Source: Flavobacteriales bacterium (GTDB taxonomy: Bacteria > Bacteroidota > Bacteroidia > Flavobacteriales > Schleiferiaceae). From it: a stretch of DNA of 38,254 bases. The stretch covers positions 48,003 through 86,256 of the forward strand of contig JAAXJR010000013.1 in NCBI GenBank assembly GCA_012269745.1, given 5' to 3'. The notes beneath the pieces were generated by a model. That model worked only from the letters and a program-made list of their open reading frames with translations. It made no database searches and was not told the origin of the DNA. Both the position numbers and the translations under genes were made by a program. Of this stretch, positions 19,211 through 27,509 are shown piece by piece; position 1 is the first letter of the stretch; each line of letters begins with the position of its first letter.

Positions 19211-19367
19211 TTTTACGGCCGCCAGTGCCGTATTTTTTTGCCTTGTTCATGCGCTTTTTAGCGCCTTTGCCAATGTTGTAGTCCTTGGCGTTTTTCGGCT
19301 TCTTTTCATGAAACGACGGTCCGGGCTCATCGCTCACACCGTTCTTTCTTGGGCTGCTTTTACTCAT
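19203..19367 (-). CDS. 54-residue basic microprotein coupled to paaE
   Basis: Reading the minus strand from ATG 19367 gives 54 codons then TAA. The ATG overlaps the end of paaE by 8 nt (ATGAGTAA contains paaE's GAG-TAA), typical of coupled genes, and the bidirectional terminator begins 3 nt after its stop. The product starts MSKSSPRKNGVSDEPGP and ends KKYGTGGRKRK. About a third of residues are Lys or Arg, Gly is common, and there is no membrane segment or Cys, so it is probably disordered and nucleic-acid- or ribosome-binding. I do not recognise a family. Placement between stop and terminator makes it likely a real gene. Confidence 0.65.
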   Translation of the reverse strand: MSKSSPRKNGVSDEPGPSFHEKKPKNAKDYNIGKGAKKRMNKAKKYGTGGRKRK

Positions 19368-20487
19368 CGAAACTTACCACTACCTTGTCGCTAGTCGCAT
19401 GTGCCTGACAGGTCAAAATATACCCGTCCTTCACCTCATCGTCTACCAATGCATAGTTCATAACCATTTCCGCAGAGCCTTCCAGAACCTTAGCGCGACA
19501 AGTACAACAAACCGCACCTTTACAAGCATAAGGAACATCTGCTCCAGCATCTAGTGCTGCGTCTAGAATGAATTCTTTGCCCGTAGCCTCAAAATGAGTC
19601 TCCTCTCCGTCCAAGATTACTGTAACAGCAGAGGCACCAGAAGCAGAAGAGGACACCTCTTTCTTGGCAGCTCCTGCCGCTGTAGTATTAAACAGCTCAA
19701 AATGAATTTTCTCCTTAGGTGTACCCAAAGACTCTAGCGTTTCGGTAACACTTTCAATCAATCCCAACGGTCCACACAAGAAATGCGCAGTAGTGGTACC
19801 TACTTCAAAGAATTTCTCATTAAAAGCCTTAACCTTGTCGCCATCAATACGACCCTTAGTCACATCGCTACCTTGATCTTCACGGCTCAAAATGTGGTGA
19901 ACCTCTAAACGGTCTACGTAAGTGTTCTTGAGATCCTCCAAAGCATCCTTAAAGATGATGCTGTTGCTATTCTTGTTGCCATAAAACAGGGTGAACGTAC
20001 TGCTTGAATCGCTTTCCAACACTGTTTTTGCAATTGACATAATCGGCGTAATACCCGAACCTGCTGCCCAACCGACAACATGAGAAGCCGAGCCCGTAGG
20101 TTCCCATTTGAAGTTGCCCATAGGCGGCATTGACTCTAGGGTCATCCCTTCTTTTAGCTCTCGATTCGCATACGTTGAGAACTTTCCTCCCTCAATTTCT
20201 TTCACCGCCACACGCAATTCTCCATCACTTGGGGCTGCACAGATCGAATATGAACGGCGCACTTCCTCACCTGAAATGGTCGTTTTTAAGGTGAGGTATT
20301 GGCCCGGTAAAAACGTGAATTTATCCTTGTTCTCCGCCGGGACATCAAAGGCAATACTCACCGCATCTTCAGTCTCTCTGCGTACTTCAGAGATGGTTAG
20401 CGGGTAAAATGATGTATCTGTAGATTTGGTCGATTCCGCCATTAGCGACGGCTTTTCATCTTTCTTTTTCTTGAAAAACTTCAACAT
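19360..20487 (-). CDS. paaE: PaaE, phenylacetyl-CoA epoxidase reductase subunit
   Basis: The 375-residue protein has an FNR-type FAD domain (about 25-135, with RRSYSIC for FAD), an NAD(P)-binding domain (about 140-265, GWAAGSGITPIMSI), and a C-terminal plant-type 2Fe-2S ferredoxin domain. The cluster ligands are Cys322, Cys327, Cys330 and Cys360 (C-x4-C-x2-C-x29-C). It passes electrons from NADPH to the PaaAC di-iron oxygenase that makes ring-1,2-epoxyphenylacetyl-CoA. A lysine-rich start (MLKFFKKKKDEKPSL) precedes the usual beginning; ATG at the internal MAESTKS is an alternative. It is divergent from paaABC rather than being in one operon with them. Confidence 0.88.
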   Translation of the reverse strand: MLKFFKKKKDEKPSLMAESTKSTDTSFYPLTISEVRRETEDAVSIAFDVPAENKDKFTFLPGQYLTLKTTISGEEVRRSYSICAAPSDGELRVAVKEIEGGKFSTYANRELKEGMTLESMPPMGNFKWEPTGSASHVVGWAAGSGITPIMSIAKTVLESDSSSTFTLFYGNKNSNSIIFKDALEDLKNTYVDRLEVHHILSREDQGSDVTKGRIDGDKVKAFNEKFFEVGTTTAHFLCGPLGLIESVTETLESLGTPKEKIHFELFNTTAAGAAKKEVSSSASGASAVTVILDGEETHFEATGKEFILDAALDAGADVPYACKGAVCCTCRAKVLEGSAEMVMNYALVDDEVKDGYILTCQAHATSDKVVVSFDE

Positions 20488-20556
20488 GCTTCGTAATTTG
20501 AAGGGTAAAGGTAAGCCCGATTTTTAAACCATAACAGGAGATACCTTGTTGTGTTT

Positions 20557-20564
20557 TAACTTTG
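20557..20564 (+). promoter_or_regulatory. -7 element for paaABC
   Basis: TAACTTTG matches TAnnTTTG exactly, 22 nt before the paaA ATG. No TTG lies 17 bp upstream, so activation by a regulator is possible. No PaaX- or PaaR-type regulator gene is in the window. Confidence 0.55.
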
Positions 20565-20586
20565 TAAGCAACCAAATACACAGAAT

Positions 20587-21543
20587 ATGGGAACCAACGT
20601 TTCTTTAGAGGATAAATTCCAAGCCTTTGTGGACGCCGAAAACAAGGTAGAGCCCAAGGACTGGATGCCTGAAAAGTACCGCAAAACCCTCATCCGCCAA
20701 ATTTCTCAGCATGCCCACAGTGAAATCATTGGGATGCAGCCAGAGGCAAACTGGATTACCAGAGCACCGTCACTACGCGCAAAATTAATTTTGCTCGCTA
20801 AGGTGCAAGATGAAGCGGGTCACGGTCTTTACTTGTACTCTGCAGCTGAAACATTGGGCGAGCCAAGAGAAAAAATGATTGCCGACCTACAAAGCGGCAA
20901 AGCGAAGTACAGCTCCATTTTTAATTACCCTACACCATCATGGGCAGATATGGGCACTATCGGCTGGTTGGTTGACGGCGCTGCCATCCAAAACCAAGTG
21001 ATGCTGACAAGAACCTCTTACGGTCCTTATGCACGTGCCATGGTTAAAATCTGTAAGGAAGAAAGCTTCCACCAGAGACAAGGATATGAGGTCGTGATGA
21101 AATTGGCCCAAGGAACTCCAGAACAAAAAGCAATGGCTCAAGAAAGTTTGAACCGTTGGTGGTGGCCTTCGCTAATGATGTTTGGACCTTCTGACGACAA
21201 CAGCCCAAATTCTGAGCAAAGCATGAAGTGGAAGATCAAGCGTAAAAGCAACGACACCCTTCGTCAAGAGTTCGTCGATAAAACTGTTCCACAAGCAGAA
21301 TACCTTGGTTTGTCTATTCCAGATCCAGATTTAAAGTGGAACGAGGAGCGCGGTCATTACGACTTCGGCGAAATCAATTGGGCTGAATTTTATGATGTAA
21401 TTAAAGGCAACGGCCCTTGTAACAAGGAGCGTATCGCGCACCACGTGAAAGCCCACGAAGAGGGTGCTTGGGTGCGTGAGGCTGCCAATGCCTACGCTAA
21501 AAAACAAGCAGCTCGCAAAGAAGGCGACGCCTCAGCTGCTTAA
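20587..21543 (+). CDS. paaA: PaaA, phenylacetyl-CoA 1,2-epoxidase catalytic subunit
   Basis: The 318-residue ferritin-like di-iron protein carries [10 protein letters not shown] (Glu46), VQDEAGHG (Glu76, His79) and [13 protein letters not shown] (Glu159, His162), the two-helix-pair carboxylate/His iron ligands of PaaA. It inserts one O2 oxygen into phenylacetyl-CoA. Length is normal. The gene opens a paaABC operon (18 nt, then 3 nt gaps). The aerobic hybrid pathway's later genes (paaG, paaZ, paaJ, paaK) are not here. Confidence 0.95.
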
Positions 21544-21561
21544 TACCTAACCGCTACCGCT

Positions 21562-21849
21562 ATGAGTGAATCAAATTGGAAACTTTGGGAAGTCTTTCTC
21601 AGAAGTAAAAATGGCCTGTCCCACAAACATGTAGGAAGTTTACATGCTGCCGACGCTGATATGGCCATTAAAAACGCCCGAGACGTATATACCAGACGTT
21701 CTGAAGGTATTAGTATTTGGGTAGTTCCGTCCGAAGAAATTACGGCGAGCTCACCAGATGAAAAAGATCCATTGTTTACACCCTCAGATGATAAGGTGTA
21801 CCGCCATCCAACCTTTTATGACATCCCAGACGATGTCGAGCACATGTAA
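21562..21849 (+). CDS. paaB: PaaB, phenylacetyl-CoA epoxidase structural subunit
   Basis: The 95-residue protein matches PaaB: WKLWEVFLRSKNGLSHKHVGSLHA at the N-terminus, RSEGISIWVVPSEEIT in the middle and the FYDIPDDVEHM tail. PaaB bridges PaaAC heterodimers in the epoxidase complex and has no known catalytic site. It lies between paaA and paaC with short gaps, so it is almost certainly co-translated. Confidence 0.94.
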   Translation: MSESNWKLWEVFLRSKNGLSHKHVGSLHAADADMAIKNARDVYTRRSEGISIWVVPSEEITASSPDEKDPLFTPSDDKVYRHPTFYDIPDDVEHM

Positions 21850-21852
21850 GCC

Positions 21853-22644
21853 ATGGCAGGAGGTTGGTTAAACGGTGTAAAACGAGATTTTACCAAGGAA
21901 GAGGCACTCAAGGAGTACTTCTATTTCCTAGCAGATGATTCACTTGTATTAGGGCAACAGCTCAGTAAATGGTGTTCAAACGGCCCTGTTCTAGAACAAG
22001 ACATTGCTATTATCAATACTGCTTTGGATCACATCGGTCGGGCTAGATTGCTCTATCAAGAATTGGCTCGATTAGAAGGCGGCGATGCCACCGAAGATAC
22101 CTTGGCGTATTTCCGTGATCACTTACAATACAGAAATGCACTCCTTGTCGAGCAACCAAACGGCCACTGGGGAGATTCAGTCGTACGCAGTTTCTTCATT
22201 GATACTTTCAATTTCTATCTATACGACGCCCTTCGCAGCTGTAACAATGAAGCGTTGCGTGGCATTGCTGAAAAAGCCATTAAGGAAATAGCCTACCAAG
22301 CACAATGGAGCGCAGAGTGGGTAGTTCGCCTTGGAGACGGTACAGAAGAAAGTCACGCTAAGGTTCAAAAAAGCATTGACGACCTGTGGATGTGGAGCGG
22401 TGAGCTCTTTGAAGAACATCCAATTTTCGAGGTTTTAAAAGACGATCTTCCTGCCTTTTCATCCTTCAAAGACCATTGGGTGAAGAAGGTGGCAGAAGTG
22501 CTTAAAATGGCAACGCTAGTGATGCCTTCGCCAGAACTTTGGATGCAGACGGGAGGACGCTATGGAATCCACAGTGCTCAGTTAGGCTACATTCTCGGTG
22601 AAATGCAAAGCTTAGCGCGTACCTATCCTGATGCCACCTGGTAA
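21853..22644 (+). CDS. paaC: PaaC, phenylacetyl-CoA epoxidase structural subunit
   Basis: The 263-residue ferritin-like protein is the non-catalytic partner of PaaA. It has DDSLVLGQQLSKWCSNGPVLEQD near the start and NTALDHIGRARLLYQELARLEG, both PaaC signatures. It starts 3 nt after paaB. The usual next gene, paaD (Fe-S/MIP18-like maturation factor), is missing: a 144-bp non-coding gap follows, then a convergent metal-transporter gene. Confidence 0.93.
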   Translation: MAGGWLNGVKRDFTKEEALKEYFYFLADDSLVLGQQLSKWCSNGPVLEQDIAIINTALDHIGRARLLYQELARLEGGDATEDTLAYFRDHLQYRNALLVEQPNGHWGDSVVRSFFIDTFNFYLYDALRSCNNEALRGIAEKAIKEIAYQAQWSAEWVVRLGDGTEESHAKVQKSIDDLWMWSGELFEEHPIFEVLKDDLPAFSSFKDHWVKKVAEVLKMATLVMPSPELWMQTGGRYGIHSAQLGYILGEMQSLARTYPDATW

Positions 22645-22770: not shown

Positions 22771-22806
22771 AGGGTTAGAGTGGGGACTTTAACCCTCTTT
22801 CTTTTT
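22771..22806 (+). terminator. Weak terminator after paaABC
   Basis: AGGGTTA (22771-22777) pairs with TAACCCT (22790-22796) across a 12-nt loop, and is followed by CTTTCTTTTTT. It overlaps the 3' end of the convergent permease gene. The stem is AT/GC mixed and only 7 bp. Confidence 0.45.
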
Positions 22807-23622
22807 TAAAAGGAATGCTGCTGCAAAGAGAATAAAGCTCACCACAGCCATAGATCCGCTGATAGAGGCTTCAAGGAAATCGGACAGAAAATACCCGCCT
22901 ACAGAACTCAAAAGTCCTTGAAGGATAATTAAGGCAACCATCCATTGCAAATCCTTCGTCAAAAGATAGGCCGTTGCTGCCGGGACCACCAAAAAAGCAA
23001 TGACTAGGATAGCGCCAACACTTTCAAAACTTACGACGGTTGCTACCGATGTAGCTGCCATCAAAGCATAGTGCCAGAGCGCAGTTCGAATACCGACGCT
23101 CTTGGCATATTCTGGGTTAAAACTTGTAAGAATCCAACCCTTGTAGCCGGCCCAAAAGACCCCTTGAATGAATATGAATAACGCAGCTAATGTCCATACG
23201 GCATTTGGTGCACTAAAGCCTAAATAGGTAGTTTGTTGTAAGGGTACAAAGGCTAATTCTCCGTGAAGCACACAATCTGCATCAATATCCGCCTGACCCG
23301 CAAATTTGGTTACGAGAATAACACCCACTGCAAAGAGAAAGGTGAAGACTGTTCCCATAGCAGCATCGCCTTGCATTTTACCTTTTGAAGAGAAAAATTG
23401 GATCAGAAAGGTGGTTAAAACACCCATGATAATAGCACCTAGAAGTAGTGGTAAGGAGGCTCTTGAACCGCTGATGAGATAAGCAATAACAATTCCCGGA
23501 AGGACGGCGTGAGAGAGCGCATCACCCATCATACTCATCTTGCGCAAAAGCAATAAATTTCCAAGCATCCCTGTTGAGGAGGCTACCAAGAAACCGGTTA
23601 TGATGATCCACACTGCGTCCAT
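22789..23622 (-). CDS. Metal ABC transporter permease (TroD/YtgD/MntB-like)
   Basis: The 277-residue integral membrane protein has about eight hydrophobic helices of the ABC-3 family. Its cytoplasmic loop LLLRKMSMMGDALSHAVLPGIVIAYL is the EAA-like contact for the ATPase. The ABC-3 family imports Mn, Zn or Fe. It begins 1 nt after the stop of the fused permease, so translation is coupled, and it is the last gene of the cassette. A heterodimer with the fused permease is likely. Confidence 0.9.
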   Translation of the reverse strand: MDAVWIIITGFLVASSTGMLGNLLLLRKMSMMGDALSHAVLPGIVIAYLISGSRASLPLLLGAIIMGVLTTFLIQFFSSKGKMQGDAAMGTVFTFLFAVGVILVTKFAGQADIDADCVLHGELAFVPLQQTTYLGFSAPNAVWTLAALFIFIQGVFWAGYKGWILTSFNPEYAKSVGIRTALWHYALMAATSVATVVSFESVGAILVIAFLVVPAATAYLLTKDLQWMVALIILQGLLSSVGGYFLSDFLEASISGSMAVVSFILFAAAFLLKKKEG

Positions 23623-23623
23623 A

Positions 23624-24928
23624 TTATGCTAAATCTGGATCTGGTATGATTTCGTGAATTTCAAGCAACGGATTGAACCTTGAACACAAGCCCAATTCAC
23701 GTAAAATTTCACCTTCAATCTCTGGTGTCAAGAAGTGCTCCATCGTCTCTGCTTCATCGTGAACCAAATGGACACTCATCTGCATTCGGCGCTGAAGATA
23801 AACTTCCCAAATTTTGTGGCGACGATCTATATCTGCACCGTAATTACGACCACTAGTGCTTAGCGTATATCCGCCGTGTACTTTACGAACTAAACCTTTG
23901 CTTGTTAATCGACCGATGGTTCTGTTCCATAGTTTGGATTCAAAGAATTGGCGCTCGTTGATGGTCGTTCTCGTAAATAGCTTGCCTTTACCGCGCACTT
24001 CACTTTGAACGGCAGCTTTCAATAAATTCTCTTCATTAATCCTGCGACGAAGTTGAAGCTTATTCCAACGCTGGTACACGATACCCTTCTTCGGAGCAAA
24101 CAACATGGATATAAATGCAATGATGCTTACACTAACAATGGTCCAGGGTCCGGTAGGCATGTTCGTTTGTGAATAGCTTACAAAAGCACCTATCCAACCA
24201 CCAAGTGATCCGAATATGCCGCTAATTACGAGCATAGGGATTAATCGGTCCGTCCAAAAACGTGCAGCAGTCGGAGGAATGATTAACAGGGCGCTCATCA
24301 TGACAATGCCTACAGCCTTAATACCAACGCTAATGGTAAGGATGGTAATGATGCTAATTAAGGTATCCGTCTTTCTGCGACTTATACCAATGCTCTGTGC
24401 ATAATCTGGGTTGAAGATAATGGCTTTAATACTCCAGTAACTCGCAATAATTAACCCTAAAACCACCAGGCTCACACTAGCAAAAGCTACACTATCCTCC
24501 GGGGTCATCGCGGCTGCATTTCCAAAGATATAATGGTCTAAACCGCTTTGATTACCAGTATATCTGGACTGAATCATTGTAAGTAAAACAATACCTAAAC
24601 CAAAGAAGCTTGAAAGCACTATCGCAAGGGCACTATCGCCTTTGATCTTGCTTTGTTGTGTGATGTAATCCACTACCCAAATACTCATCCAACCGCTAAT
24701 GGCGGCACCTAGTATCATGACTGCAGGATTCTTCACACCGCTTAAAAGAAAGGCTATCAACACTCCTGGCAACATGCTATGTGCAACGGTCTCTCCAACG
24801 AGAGTTTTCTTGCGTAAAAAATTGAAACTACCCACAGTACCACTCATGCCTCCAAGAAGCACAATAGCGATGACCACATAACGAACGTTAGGATCTTCTA
24901 AGCTGAGGTATTTGAGCAGTATATCCAA
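23624..24928 (-). CDS. Metal ABC permease fused to DtxR/MntR-like repressor (YtgCR-like)
   Basis: The 434-residue protein has residues 1-280 as an ABC-3 permease (eight to nine helices; LRKKTLVGETVAHSMLPGVLIAFLL loop). Residues 285-434 are a soluble domain: a winged helix (about 296-358, FESKLWNRTIGRLTSKGLVRK, then YTLSTSGR) and a DtxR metal-binding/dimerisation domain. The metal ligands align with DtxR/MntR: His371, Glu375, His390, Glu394, Glu397, His398. Glu394 replaces the DtxR Cys102, as in manganese-sensing MntR. Chlamydial YtgCR has the same layout and is cleaved to release the repressor. The start is TTG at 24928, directly after the stop of the binding protein; the next ATG is residue 28. 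Transport plus self-regulation is inferred. Confidence 0.88.
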   Translation of the reverse strand: MDILLKYLSLEDPNVRYVVIAIVLLGGMSGTVGSFNFLRKKTLVGETVAHSMLPGVLIAFLLSGVKNPAVMILGAAISGWMSIWVVDYITQQSKIKGDSALAIVLSSFFGLGIVLLTMIQSRYTGNQSGLDHYIFGNAAAMTPEDSVAFASVSLVVLGLIIASYWSIKAIIFNPDYAQSIGISRRKTDTLISIITILTISVGIKAVGIVMMSALLIIPPTAARFWTDRLIPMLVISGIFGSLGGWIGAFVSYSQTNMPTGPWTIVSVSIIAFISMLFAPKKGIVYQRWNKLQLRRRINEENLLKAAVQSEVRGKGKLFTRTTINERQFFESKLWNRTIGRLTSKGLVRKVHGGYTLSTSGRNYGADIDRRHKIWEVYLQRRMQMSVHLVHDEAETMEHFLTPEIEGEILRELGLCSRFNPLLEIHEIIPDPDLA

Positions 24929-25834
24929 TTATTTCAAGTATTCGGCAATGGTCTTGGCATTGAAGATAAGCATCTTAAAGTAGGTGTTTTGGTCCTCCTC
25001 ACTTCCTAAAGAATCGCTTAATAATTCCGGTCCAATTTCAACCTCAAATCCCTTTGAAGCACAGCCGCGCTGTACACTCTCCATGGCCTGCGGACTTACA
25101 ATATTTTCTAGAAAAATAGCTGGAACTTTAACTTCAACGATAAAATCTACCAAATCTGTAATCTCCCTCAAGCCAAACTCACTAACCGTAGAAGCGCCTT
25201 GTAATGTTTTTACTCGAAGACCGTATTGACGGGCAAAGTAGCTCAATGCATCATGGGTTGTAATAACTAATCGTTGCTCCTGTGGAATAGCTGAAACAAT
25301 ACTATCCACTTCTAAGGCAACCTCATCCATTGCCGTGAAATACGAACCCATATTATTTAATAAAGCAGCGCTTTCTTCAGCGTATGATTCCGATAGTTGA
25401 CCAACAATAGTTTTGATGGAGTTCTGAGCTAGAGTTTTATCGAACCACGCGTGAGGATCAGTAGACGCTGGGAAATTTGGATCGCGAATGATCAATTCAT
25501 TAGGGAAGTTTTTTGCTGCATCGATGATGAGTTTTCCTTCCATGTGTTCCAGCACTTCAATAATTTTTCCTTCTAAATGAAGACCGTGATAAATAATGAC
25601 ATCGGCATCACGAAAAATATCTAGATCCTTCTTTGAAGGTTTATACACGTGTGGATCAATACCTACTTTCAGTAGTGGAATAATCTCCATTTTATCAGTA
25701 GCTACATTACTTACCCAATCCGTCATGATGCTTGTAGTACATACAACTTTGATCTTTTCGTTAGCCGTATCTTGGGTGGGAGCAGCACACGAAAATAGAA
25801 CTAGTCCAGTAAGAAAGGAAAGGAGGTATCGCAT
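24929..25834 (-). CDS. Metal-binding lipoprotein, TroA/YtgA/ZnuA family
   Basis: The 301-residue cluster A-I binding protein has a lipoprotein signal (MRYLLSFLTGLVLFSC, Cys16). Ligand segments are GIDPHVYKP (His), TDPHAWFDK (His), IFLENIVSP (Glu) and ELLSDSLG (Asp), giving the His2-Glu-Asp site of Mn/Zn/Fe receptors. There is no His-rich loop of the kind that marks zinc-specific ZnuA, which favours Mn or Fe. The ATG at 25834 is used; an in-frame start 9 codons upstream would put 27 nt of leader before the signal. It heads the cassette; the stop abuts the TTG start of the permease-repressor. Confidence 0.9.
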   Translation of the reverse strand: MRYLLSFLTGLVLFSCAAPTQDTANEKIKVVCTTSIMTDWVSNVATDKMEIIPLLKVGIDPHVYKPSKKDLDIFRDADVIIYHGLHLEGKIIEVLEHMEGKLIIDAAKNFPNELIIRDPNFPASTDPHAWFDKTLAQNSIKTIVGQLSESYAEESAALLNNMGSYFTAMDEVALEVDSIVSAIPQEQRLVITTHDALSYFARQYGLRVKTLQGASTVSEFGLREITDLVDFIVEVKVPAIFLENIVSPQAMESVQRGCASKGFEVEIGPELLSDSLGSEEDQNTYFKMLIFNAKTIAEYLK

Positions 25835-25845
25835 CTTATTTTGAT

Positions 25846-25878
25846 TTATTCTAAATAACAAAAGTAACTCGTAGAGTT
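25846..25878. promoter_or_regulatory. Palindromes at the metal-transporter promoter
   Basis: TTATT-CTA-AATAA (25846-25858) and AACTC-GTA-GAGTT (25866-25878) are two 5-3-5 perfect inverted repeats either side of the -7 element. Their arms differ from each other. They are candidate binding sites for the cassette's own repressor domain. Confidence 0.35.
25859..25866 (-). promoter_or_regulatory. -7 element of the metal-transporter operon
   Basis: TACTTTTG on the minus strand matches TAnnTTTG exactly, 24 nt before the ATG at 25834. Confidence 0.55.
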
Positions 25879-25967: not shown

Positions 25968-27509
25968 ATGGAAGCATTTACACCTTCTCAGATCTTAGAA
26001 TCTTTAAACCTTACTGGAACTATCCACGGAACCTCAACGGGTCAGCAGTGGATGGAAAGTAGTGACACCATTTCCTCAAATTCGCCTATTGATAACCTCG
26101 AACTAGGCAGCGTAAGTATAACCACCAAAGAGCAGTACGATGTAGTAGTAACTGCCGCATCTGAAGCTTTTAAAACACTTCGTAGTATGCCCGCTCCAAA
26201 AAGAGGTGAGCTAATGCGCCAATTCGGAAATGCCCTGCGCGAAGAAAAAGCAGCACTTGGTGCCTTAGTTTCCCTAGAAATGGGAAAAAGCTACCAAGAA
26301 GGCCTTGGTGAAGTACAGGAAATGATAGATATATGTGATTTTGCAGTGGGTCTTTCACGCCAGTTATACGGTTTAACTATCAAGAGCGAAAGAACAGCCC
26401 ACCACATGATGGAGCAGTGGCATCCACTTGGAGTTGTAGGTGTAATTTCTGCGTTCAATTTCCCAGTTGCTGTTTGGGCTTGGAATTTTGCATTAGCCGT
26501 CGTTTGTGGCAATACAGTAGTTTGGAAAGGCAGTGAAAAAGCACCATTGTGTGCCGTTGCTTGCCAACACATTTGGAATAAAGTCGCTGCAGCAAATAAC
26601 CTTCCAGAAGGAATTTCTTCGATCATCACTGGTGATTATACACGTGGTGAATGGATGACCCACGATGAGAGAATGCCACTAATATCAGCGACAGGTTCCA
26701 CTAGAATGGGAAGAATAGTTGGTGCTCAGGTTGCCTCAAGATTTGGAAAGTCAATCCTAGAATTAGGAGGAAATAATGCCATCATCATTACGCCTACTTG
26801 TGATTTAAAAATGACCGTTACCGGTGCGTTGTTTGGTGCAGTTGGAACATGTGGTCAACGTTGTACCTCAACAAGAAGACTCATTATTCACGAGAGTGTT
26901 TATGATAAAGTGAAGAACGCTTTAATTGAAGCGTACGGTCAAATTAAAATTGGTAACCCACTTGATGAAAGTAATCACGTAGGACCATTGATTGATCAAG
27001 ATGCTGTCGATGCCTTCCTAAATACCATCAAAAATGTACAAGCCGAAGGTGGAACAGTACTCTACGGGGGTGAAGTTCTTCAGGGAGGAATTTATGATGA
27101 TGGATTCTATGTTCAACCTTGTATTGTAGAAGCATCGAACAACTATGATAGCGTTCAAAAAGAAACCTTTGCCCCTATTCTTTACCTATTAAAATATGAA
27201 GGTGAGGTAGAAAATGCGATCGCTATTCAAAACGATGTAAAGCAAGGATTGTCTAGTGCAATTATGACTAGCGATGTACGTGAAGCTCATATTTTCTTGA
27301 GTGAAAGTGGTTCTGATTGTGGTATTGCTAATGTGAATATTGGTACCTCAGGAGCTGAAATTGGCGGGGCCTTCGGTGGAGAAAAAGAAACTGGTGGTGG
27401 TCGTGAAAGTGGATCAGATGCCTGGAAAGCATATATGCGCCGCCAAACCAATACCTTGAATTACGGTAAAGATCTACCGCTTGCACAAGGCATTGAATTC
27501 AACATCTAA
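25968..27509 (+). CDS. ALDH7/antiquitin-type aldehyde dehydrogenase
   Basis: The 513-residue protein matches the ALDH7 family: L-aminoadipate-semialdehyde (piperideine-6-carboxylate) dehydrogenase of lysine catabolism. Catalytic Cys299 is in [13 protein letters not shown] and Glu265 in [21 protein letters not shown] and [10 protein letters not shown] match the family's cofactor region. NAD-dependent oxidation of alpha-aminoadipate semialdehyde is the inferred reaction. It is divergent from the metal cassette and 3 nt before the GSCFA gene. Other lysine-degradation genes are not present. Confidence 0.85.

Follow-up and report, generated by a model that had tools for sequence, protein, structure and literature searches.

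In Chlamydia, the protein YtgCR joins an ABC-3 permease to a C-terminal DtxR-like domain and belongs to a metal-import operon. The excerpted texts of two papers describe the chlamydial YtgR as a repressor that is cleaved from YtgCR (PMC5599777, PMC7755916). Orthologous permease-repressor fusions have been reported from 11 phyla, as stated in the excerpt of one review (PMC5599777); the fusion architecture itself is already known and is not new. Fused C-terminal regulatory domains of another kind stop import at high substrate levels in the ABC importers MetNI and ModABC (PMC10710835, in excerpt).

We analysed such a fusion in a stretch of 38,254 nucleotides from a Flavobacteriales bacterium (hereafter, the window), whose genome has 2.27 Mb and was rated by the assessment tool as 100% complete and 2.33% contaminated. 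The first-pass annotation of the window had described one 434-residue frame with an ABC-3 permease and a DtxR/MntR-like domain, and had named YtgCR as the closest known case. Pfam, an AlphaFold2 model and a fold search all agreed with the first statement, and the shared architecture with the second. The Bacteroidota fusion differs from YtgCR in that it is usually accompanied by a dedicated MntR, and the window operon has no ATPase gene. By the chlamydial precedent, which has the same architecture, the C-terminal domain would be a metal-dependent repressor of its own operon that is freed by proteolysis or by an internal start, or that acts while tethered. We consider this unlikely, although it keeps some weight. 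We favour, tentatively and with a confidence slightly short of even, the reading that the fused DtxR domain senses metal and acts as a brake on the importer.

The fusion gene and its predicted fold

The fusion starts with TTG directly 3′ of the stop codon of the upstream gene (Table 1). Pfam matched ABC-3 at residues 15-277 (E = 2.9e-53) and Fe_dep_repr_C at residues 359-413 (E = 6.7e-12), while no HTH family exceeded its cut-off over the winged helix. The AlphaFold2 model was built from a 68-row alignment of fusions (pLDDT 84.3, pTM 0.72). Its residues 3-298 matched PsaC of Streptococcus pneumoniae (7kyp_F, Z 36.0, rmsd 3.7, 283 aligned), and residues 292-424 matched DtxR (1p92, Z 16.3, rmsd 3.0, 130 aligned), so that the structural check suggested by the first-pass annotation came out in its favour. 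IdeR, DR2539 and MntR also matched the modelled C-terminal domain (Z 14.3 to 15.3). In the model, the DtxR module starts a few residues after the last membrane helix, and the tail 421-434 is of low confidence. As predicted, the window fusion has both the winged helix and the metal/dimerisation fold of the DtxR/MntR family. It resembles MntR, DtxR, IdeR and DR2539 in this predicted fold and in its metal ligands. Unlike them, it is fused to a membrane channel, its DNA-reading helix and wing are not conserved, and it has no FeoA/SH3-like third domain. An assembly join or a chance frame was ruled out by orthologues with 71-98% identity in 20 other genomes of the genus.

Table 1. Features of the metal operon in the window (numbering of the window)
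Feature	Position	Strand	Basis or remark
Second ABC-3 permease, 277 aa, without C-terminal extension	22789..23622	minus	Pfam E 3.4e-47
Permease-DtxR fusion gene, 434 aa	23624..24928	minus	Frame, Pfam, AlphaFold2 model, fold search
DtxR/MntR metal-binding/dimerisation domain, residues 358-425	23654..23857	minus	Ligands H371, E375, H390, E394, E397, H398
Winged-helix domain, residues 283-357	23858..24082	minus	AlphaFold2 model and fold search
Helix 331-344, corresponding to the DtxR/MntR recognition helix	23897..23938	minus	Poorly conserved in fusions
ABC-3 permease domain, residues 13-277	24098..24892	minus	Pfam, fold search
Substrate-binding lipoprotein, ZnuA/TroA-like	24929..25861	minus	E 2.1e-58; TroA 1.1e-45
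Conserved promoter footprint TTTGTTATTTAGAATAAAT	25844..25862	minus	Part of imperfect palindrome TTATTTA-N3-TAAATAA

The MntR-type ligand set is kept

The MntR-type ligand set noticed in the first pass was largely invariant. H371, E375, H390, E397 and H398 were identical in 126 of 126 aligned fusions, sequences that had been excised with a motif containing H371 and E375; the sixth position, E394, was E in 100 and D in 26 of them. Two truncated frames (L115 and L146), both showing H371 and E375, were left out of the conservation counts. The count is also limited in that 80 loci, which we call the named loci, were retrieved with patterns holding some of the ligand residues; their carriers include the culturable environmental bacteria Reichenbachiella faecimaris, Ekhidna lutea, Marivirga and Pontibacter. 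Among fusions retrieved without residue patterns, the ligand string was present in 75 of 75, three of which had a longer C-terminus. Asn301 of the window fusion presumably occupies the position of DtxR Met10, and Asn was found at the equivalent position in 82 of 84 MntRs too. With these ligands conserved, the fused and presumably cytosolic domain might bind the import substrate.

Several other residues distinguished the fusions from MntR. R327, R366, H388 and Y430 (window numbering of residues of the canonical fusions) were conserved in fusions, and not conserved, or conserved differently, in MntR. The same was true of P402, E403 and E405, although these belonged to the search pattern for the 80 named loci; the search patterns themselves account in part for the motif TPE[LI]E, seen only in fusions, and for the metal-domain identity in those loci.

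Operon types and the company of MntR

We distinguished type A, the canonical order mntR-SBP-ATPase-fusion-permease (SBP, substrate-binding protein), from type W, the order SBP-fusion-permease of the window, in which no ATPase gene was found. The host genome encodes four ABC-3 permeases and three DtxR metal domains. Its other fusion locus (L008, on contig C65) reads mntR with a FeoA domain, SBP, ATPase, fusion, an outer-membrane-like protein and permease; the operon with SBP, ATPase and second permease is complete in this paralogous locus, and it is the ATPase that the window operon lacks. The L008 fusion has 420 aa and is 37% identical to that of the window. For the window SBP, the ATG at 25834 is more likely to be the start than the TTG at 25861; the nearest match of this protein was TroA, and Mn, Fe or Zn as substrate are all compatible. 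The window operon resembles PsaABC, TroABCD and SitABCD in its SBP and permeases, with PsaC as the match of the modelled channel and TroA as the best SBP match. It differs from them in having two different permeases, one with a sensor, in having no ATPase gene in the operon, and in a Glu46 that replaces Asp46.

The neighbourhoods had features of their own. The metal operon is flanked by PaaE and PaaABC phenylacetyl-CoA epoxidase genes (NCBIfam) and, at its opposite end, by an L-piperidine-6-carboxylate dehydrogenase gene, the flanking genes occupying 19360-22644 and 25968-27509 of the window. The outer-membrane-like gene of L008 (4911-5762; PF13557, E 3.8e-5), between the type A fusion and the second permease, was there in 20 of 21 type A loci of the genus, one of them weakly matched. 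It may encode an outer-membrane channel for metal.

By its named relatives, the genus falls among Schleiferiaceae/Cryomorphaceae (Flavobacteriales) genomes assembled from metagenomes. Among 25 genomes of the genus, a W fusion was present in 21, an A fusion in 22 (one partial) and both in 20, as counted by eye from the listed rows. MntR was encoded in 20 of the 21 type A loci of the genus (L008 and L076-L095); in L077 the contig ends first. Twenty further loci from the family and order comprised five of type W and 15 of type A, and mntR accompanied 11 of these 15. Thirteen of the 80 named loci were of type W. Of the remaining 67, 55 showed a standalone MntR within the fetched stretch, and contig ends cut several of the 12 stretches without one. 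In 52 of these 55 loci mntR lay upstream on the same strand, and in three (L147, L179 and L204) on the other strand. No ATPase or MntR was seen in any of the 25 type W stretches from the genus, family and order or of the 13 from the named loci, two sets that overlap and in which some stretches are cut by contig ends. Operon genes were called by phmmer against the proteins of the host genome of the window, with which distant genes can be missed. In most of the Bacteroidota loci read, a dedicated MntR goes with the fusion.

A separate MntR in 55 of 67 loci speaks against the fused domain as the repressor of the system. Alternatively, free MntR might form dimers with the fused domain by way of their dimerisation domains, which would hold MntR at the membrane or modulate it according to the state of the transporter. 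The two proteins are mostly encoded together and their metal/dimerisation domains are nearly equally conserved, as such a partnership would suggest. However, the positions conserved only in fusions and those conserved only in MntR differ inside this very domain, and W-type operons do not encode MntR. We consider such pairing quite improbable.

The DNA-reading helix has drifted

We compared mean pairwise identities in 83 loci with both proteins, thinned to 37 at an MntR identity below 75%. Identity of the recognition helix was 0.624 in MntR and 0.309 in the fusion, and that of the turn and wing was 0.423 and 0.241, whereas the metal domains were similar (0.658 and 0.615). The ratio of helix to metal-domain identity was 0.948 for MntR (bootstrap 0.865-1.045) and 0.502 for the fusion (0.44-0.573). 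The 25 sequences labelled W in this conservation alignment include L204, whose operon and place in the tree make it type A. Because loci retrieved with patterns favour metal-domain conservation, we made a control set of 38 loci from a whole-protein search with no residue patterns, of which 19 remained after thinning. Here, the values for MntR and fusion were 0.566 and 0.272 for the recognition helix, 0.460 and 0.265 for the wing, and 0.604 and 0.580 for the metal domain. MntR was the more conserved protein in 153 of 171 pairs for the helix and 165 for the wing, compared with 96 for the metal domain.

The same pattern appeared within the genus. For the A fusion, dN was 0.59 in the HTH and 0.066 in the metal domain, a ninefold difference; for the W fusion it was 0.295 and 0.091, a threefold difference, with 0.166 in the permease. 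The two values were close in MntR (0.189 and 0.156). The regions of MntR and the A fusion were set by their offset from the first ligand, and their edges are approximate.

The fusion helix retains its hydrophobic spacing. The winged helix carries more positive charge in the fusion than in MntR (+5.2 versus +3.0), a feature that can be counted for a repressor and would also be compatible with non-specific contact with DNA or with the membrane. In the excerpted text on IdeR, residues 36-47 of the recognition region, plus others, contact bases and backbone, and IdeR reads DNA largely by indirect readout and tolerates the loss of single base contacts (PMC8464063). Therefore, lost base-contact residues alone do not prove lost DNA binding. 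Judged by conservation, the window fusion does not share the conserved DNA-reading helix of DtxR and MntR, and the comparison suggests that the fused domain kept metal sensing and lost DNA reading. A recognition helix and wing left unconserved beside a conserved metal domain argue against a repressor freed by cleavage.

Operators and promoters

The motif TTTTAG-N6-CTAAAA was found before 74 of 84 mntR genes, above the 99th percentile of Markov controls, in a palindrome search trained on the same 84 upstream stretches in which the motif was counted. The ten stretches below the threshold included eight of Pontibacter. The motif is presumably an operator read by MntR. The fusion is unlikely to read it, because the fusion helix varies while the motif is shared. 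In the host genome, TTTAGN6CTAAA occurred twice, once ahead of the type A operon and once on contig C77, compared with nine times for the backward control. The second match (L266, G000 contig C77:19574-19589) may be due to chance.

Control of the window operon by MntR through this canonical operator was rejected. The best site in the window scored 7.7 bits, compared with a median of 21.3 for mntR promoters, and none of 30 W-type upstream stretches scored above 7.7. For this set, five non-W rows out of 35 had been set aside, L121 and L132 were outside it, and some genomes were represented twice.

In place of the MntR operator, the W promoters carry TTTGTTATTTAGAA(N)AAT, of which 17 of 18 genomes had a single copy, although the pattern was derived from the same W promoters in which it was counted. 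The first-pass annotation had pointed to 25846-25878 as a site to test for binding, and the conserved footprint of the window, at 25844-25862, overlaps it. The palindrome TATTTA-N3-TAAATA, chosen after looking, was perfect in L100, L116 and L117, from three genera, which 0 of 2,600 shuffles reached; the other loci of the genus had one or two mismatches. It was absent from L121, L122 and L132 (two or three mismatches elsewhere).

The promoter footprint counts for a repressor function of the W fusion, as does a possible internal start. In the window fusion, codon 275 is an in-frame ATG (24104-24106) where the last membrane helix ends, and translation from it could yield a free DtxR domain of about 160 aa. 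All 19 W loci read from the genus have this ATG, at residue 275 or 276. However, it was missing from three of four loci read from other W genera, and a Met that closes a membrane helix is probably common by itself. In L117, which is from another genus, the palindrome was retained perfectly while the HTH was shortened in the alignment, which also speaks against the fused domain as its reader.

The W clade and a candidate ATPase

In a tree of 140 distinct fusions, the 24 type W sequences formed one clade with support 1.0. Residue 46 was Glu in 24 of 24 W sequences and Asp in 116 of 116 others; residue 388 was His in none of the 24 and in 113 of the 116. The window permease has Glu46 and His50 at the positions of PsaC Asp46 and His50, which coordinate Mn within the membrane according to the excerpt of PMC11779740. 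On the tree, one branch thus carries the change of the channel site, that of a residue next to the sensor ligands, and the loss of the linked ATPase and mntR genes, the coincidence of D46E with the change at H388 being a single event. We would guess that the metal or the affinity for it changed in the W clade.

The type A ATPase, used as a query, had exactly one match (E ≤ 1e-40) in 26 of 28 genomes. The two without a match, G297 (340 contigs) and G309 (58% complete), are broken or incomplete. Three genomes with a W fusion and without an A fusion (G323, G328 and G341) also had one ATPase each, at a distance from the fusion; the nearest importer-related gene found was, for G328 and G341, an mntR on the opposite strand. 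The simplest reading of these distributions is that one ATPase may be common to both operons.

Prevalence and a putative winged-helix-only class

The first-pass annotation had left open how widespread such fusions are in Bacteroidota, and the counts in relatives answer this in part. The full fusion (class I) was found in at least 23 of 296 relatives at the Bacteroidota level, as counted by eye from the listed rows. In at least 28 of the 296 (class II), the permease frame extends by about 100 residues with no metal-domain match. We read 20 class II loci (L226-L245), from 19 of the 28 class II genomes plus one from the search that covered the genus. In these, both permeases end in a putative winged helix, as read by eye, with no metal domain after it. 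Histidines of the extension were conserved in 20, 20, 17 and 19 of 20 second permeases and in 17, 12 and 17 of 19 first permeases. PF02742 was not found within a permease frame in any of 20 class II genomes.

A separate DtxR protein was present in 19 of 20 class II genomes, in 27 of 28 genomes of a set of the size used in the ATPase search, and in 12 of 15 class I genomes. In the remaining three class I genomes (G204, G220 and G352), the fusion was the sole DtxR-family protein, which favours a repressor and counts against a brake.

Three other fusions (L247, L248 and L249) had frames of 498-516 residues, and no importer genes were found alongside. They keep the ligand string and extend past the metal domain, perhaps into a FeoA-like third domain as judged by eye.

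Fusions of Bacteroidota beside MntR were not found among the literature matches listed, although the 11 phyla of the review may include Bacteroidota. As far as the literature found goes, what is new in Bacteroidota is an MntR that shares the operon, a recognition helix that has been lost, a clade without the ATPase gene and the class with putative winged helices only.

A proposed metal sensor on the importer

Taken together, the ligands and fold are kept, the domain begins close to the membrane in the model, its DNA-reading face is no longer conserved and MntR is mostly alongside. For these reasons we read the domain as a metal sensor. The fusion would form half of the transmembrane channel in an ABC importer of the Mn/Fe/Zn type, and its C-terminal DtxR/MntR module the cytosolic metal sensor of the importer itself. 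At high cytosolic metal, the metal-loaded domain would keep the importer from working (transinhibition), as C-terminal domains of other folds do in MetN and ModC; once metal falls, it would release the transporter. Transcription of the canonical operon would be repressed by the separate MntR. The window operon might be a derived copy without an ATPase gene, which presumably borrows the canonical ATPase from the other contig. We infer the metal binding, the transport inhibition, the sharing of the ATPase, the choice of metal and the reading of the operator by MntR.

In this respect the fusion would be similar to MetNI and ModABC, where a C-terminal cytosolic domain on an importer subunit is likewise a proposed substrate sensor. 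It differs in that the domain has another fold and belongs to the channel subunit instead of the ATPase, and in that the inhibition is a proposal made here. Some observations do not fit a brake well. One permease of the two carries the domain, whereas a DtxR dimer would need two. The window operon has no MntR operator and has its own palindrome instead, and there is the ATG at 275/276.

Conserved ligands with a drifting DNA-reading face would also suit a simple metal acceptor, so the fused domain might be a passive metal buffer or a stabilising tail with no regulatory role. However, substitutions within the genus accumulate more slowly in the metal domain than in the channel, and the DtxR fold would be an unusual chaperone. 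We regard a passive role as improbable.

The proposal of the first-pass annotation, in which the fused domain represses the system after release by cleavage, is therefore not favoured for the fusions in general, given the separate MntR, the common operator and the unconserved DNA-reading face. For the window's own copy, it is weakened by the comparison and not dismissed, because this operon has its own palindrome, no adjacent mntR and no site for MntR, and an in-frame ATG275.

Returning to the sensor that brakes the importer, a broader claim can be drawn, to which we give somewhat less than even credence: Bacteroidota might have recruited a repressor of the DtxR family as an allosteric brake that acts on the channel subunit of a metal ABC importer. 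A second lineage might have gone further by shedding the metal domain; its winged helices, which carry conserved histidines on both permeases, could form a new intersubunit metal switch. We did not find an allosteric DtxR brake described for the metal ABC importer family. If this is true, a widespread permease-DtxR architecture has been misread as a repressor that requires cleavage, and metal importers would combine slow transcriptional control with a fast brake at the post-translational level. It would also offer, in culturable bacteria, a testable alternative to the puzzle of a membrane-bound repressor.
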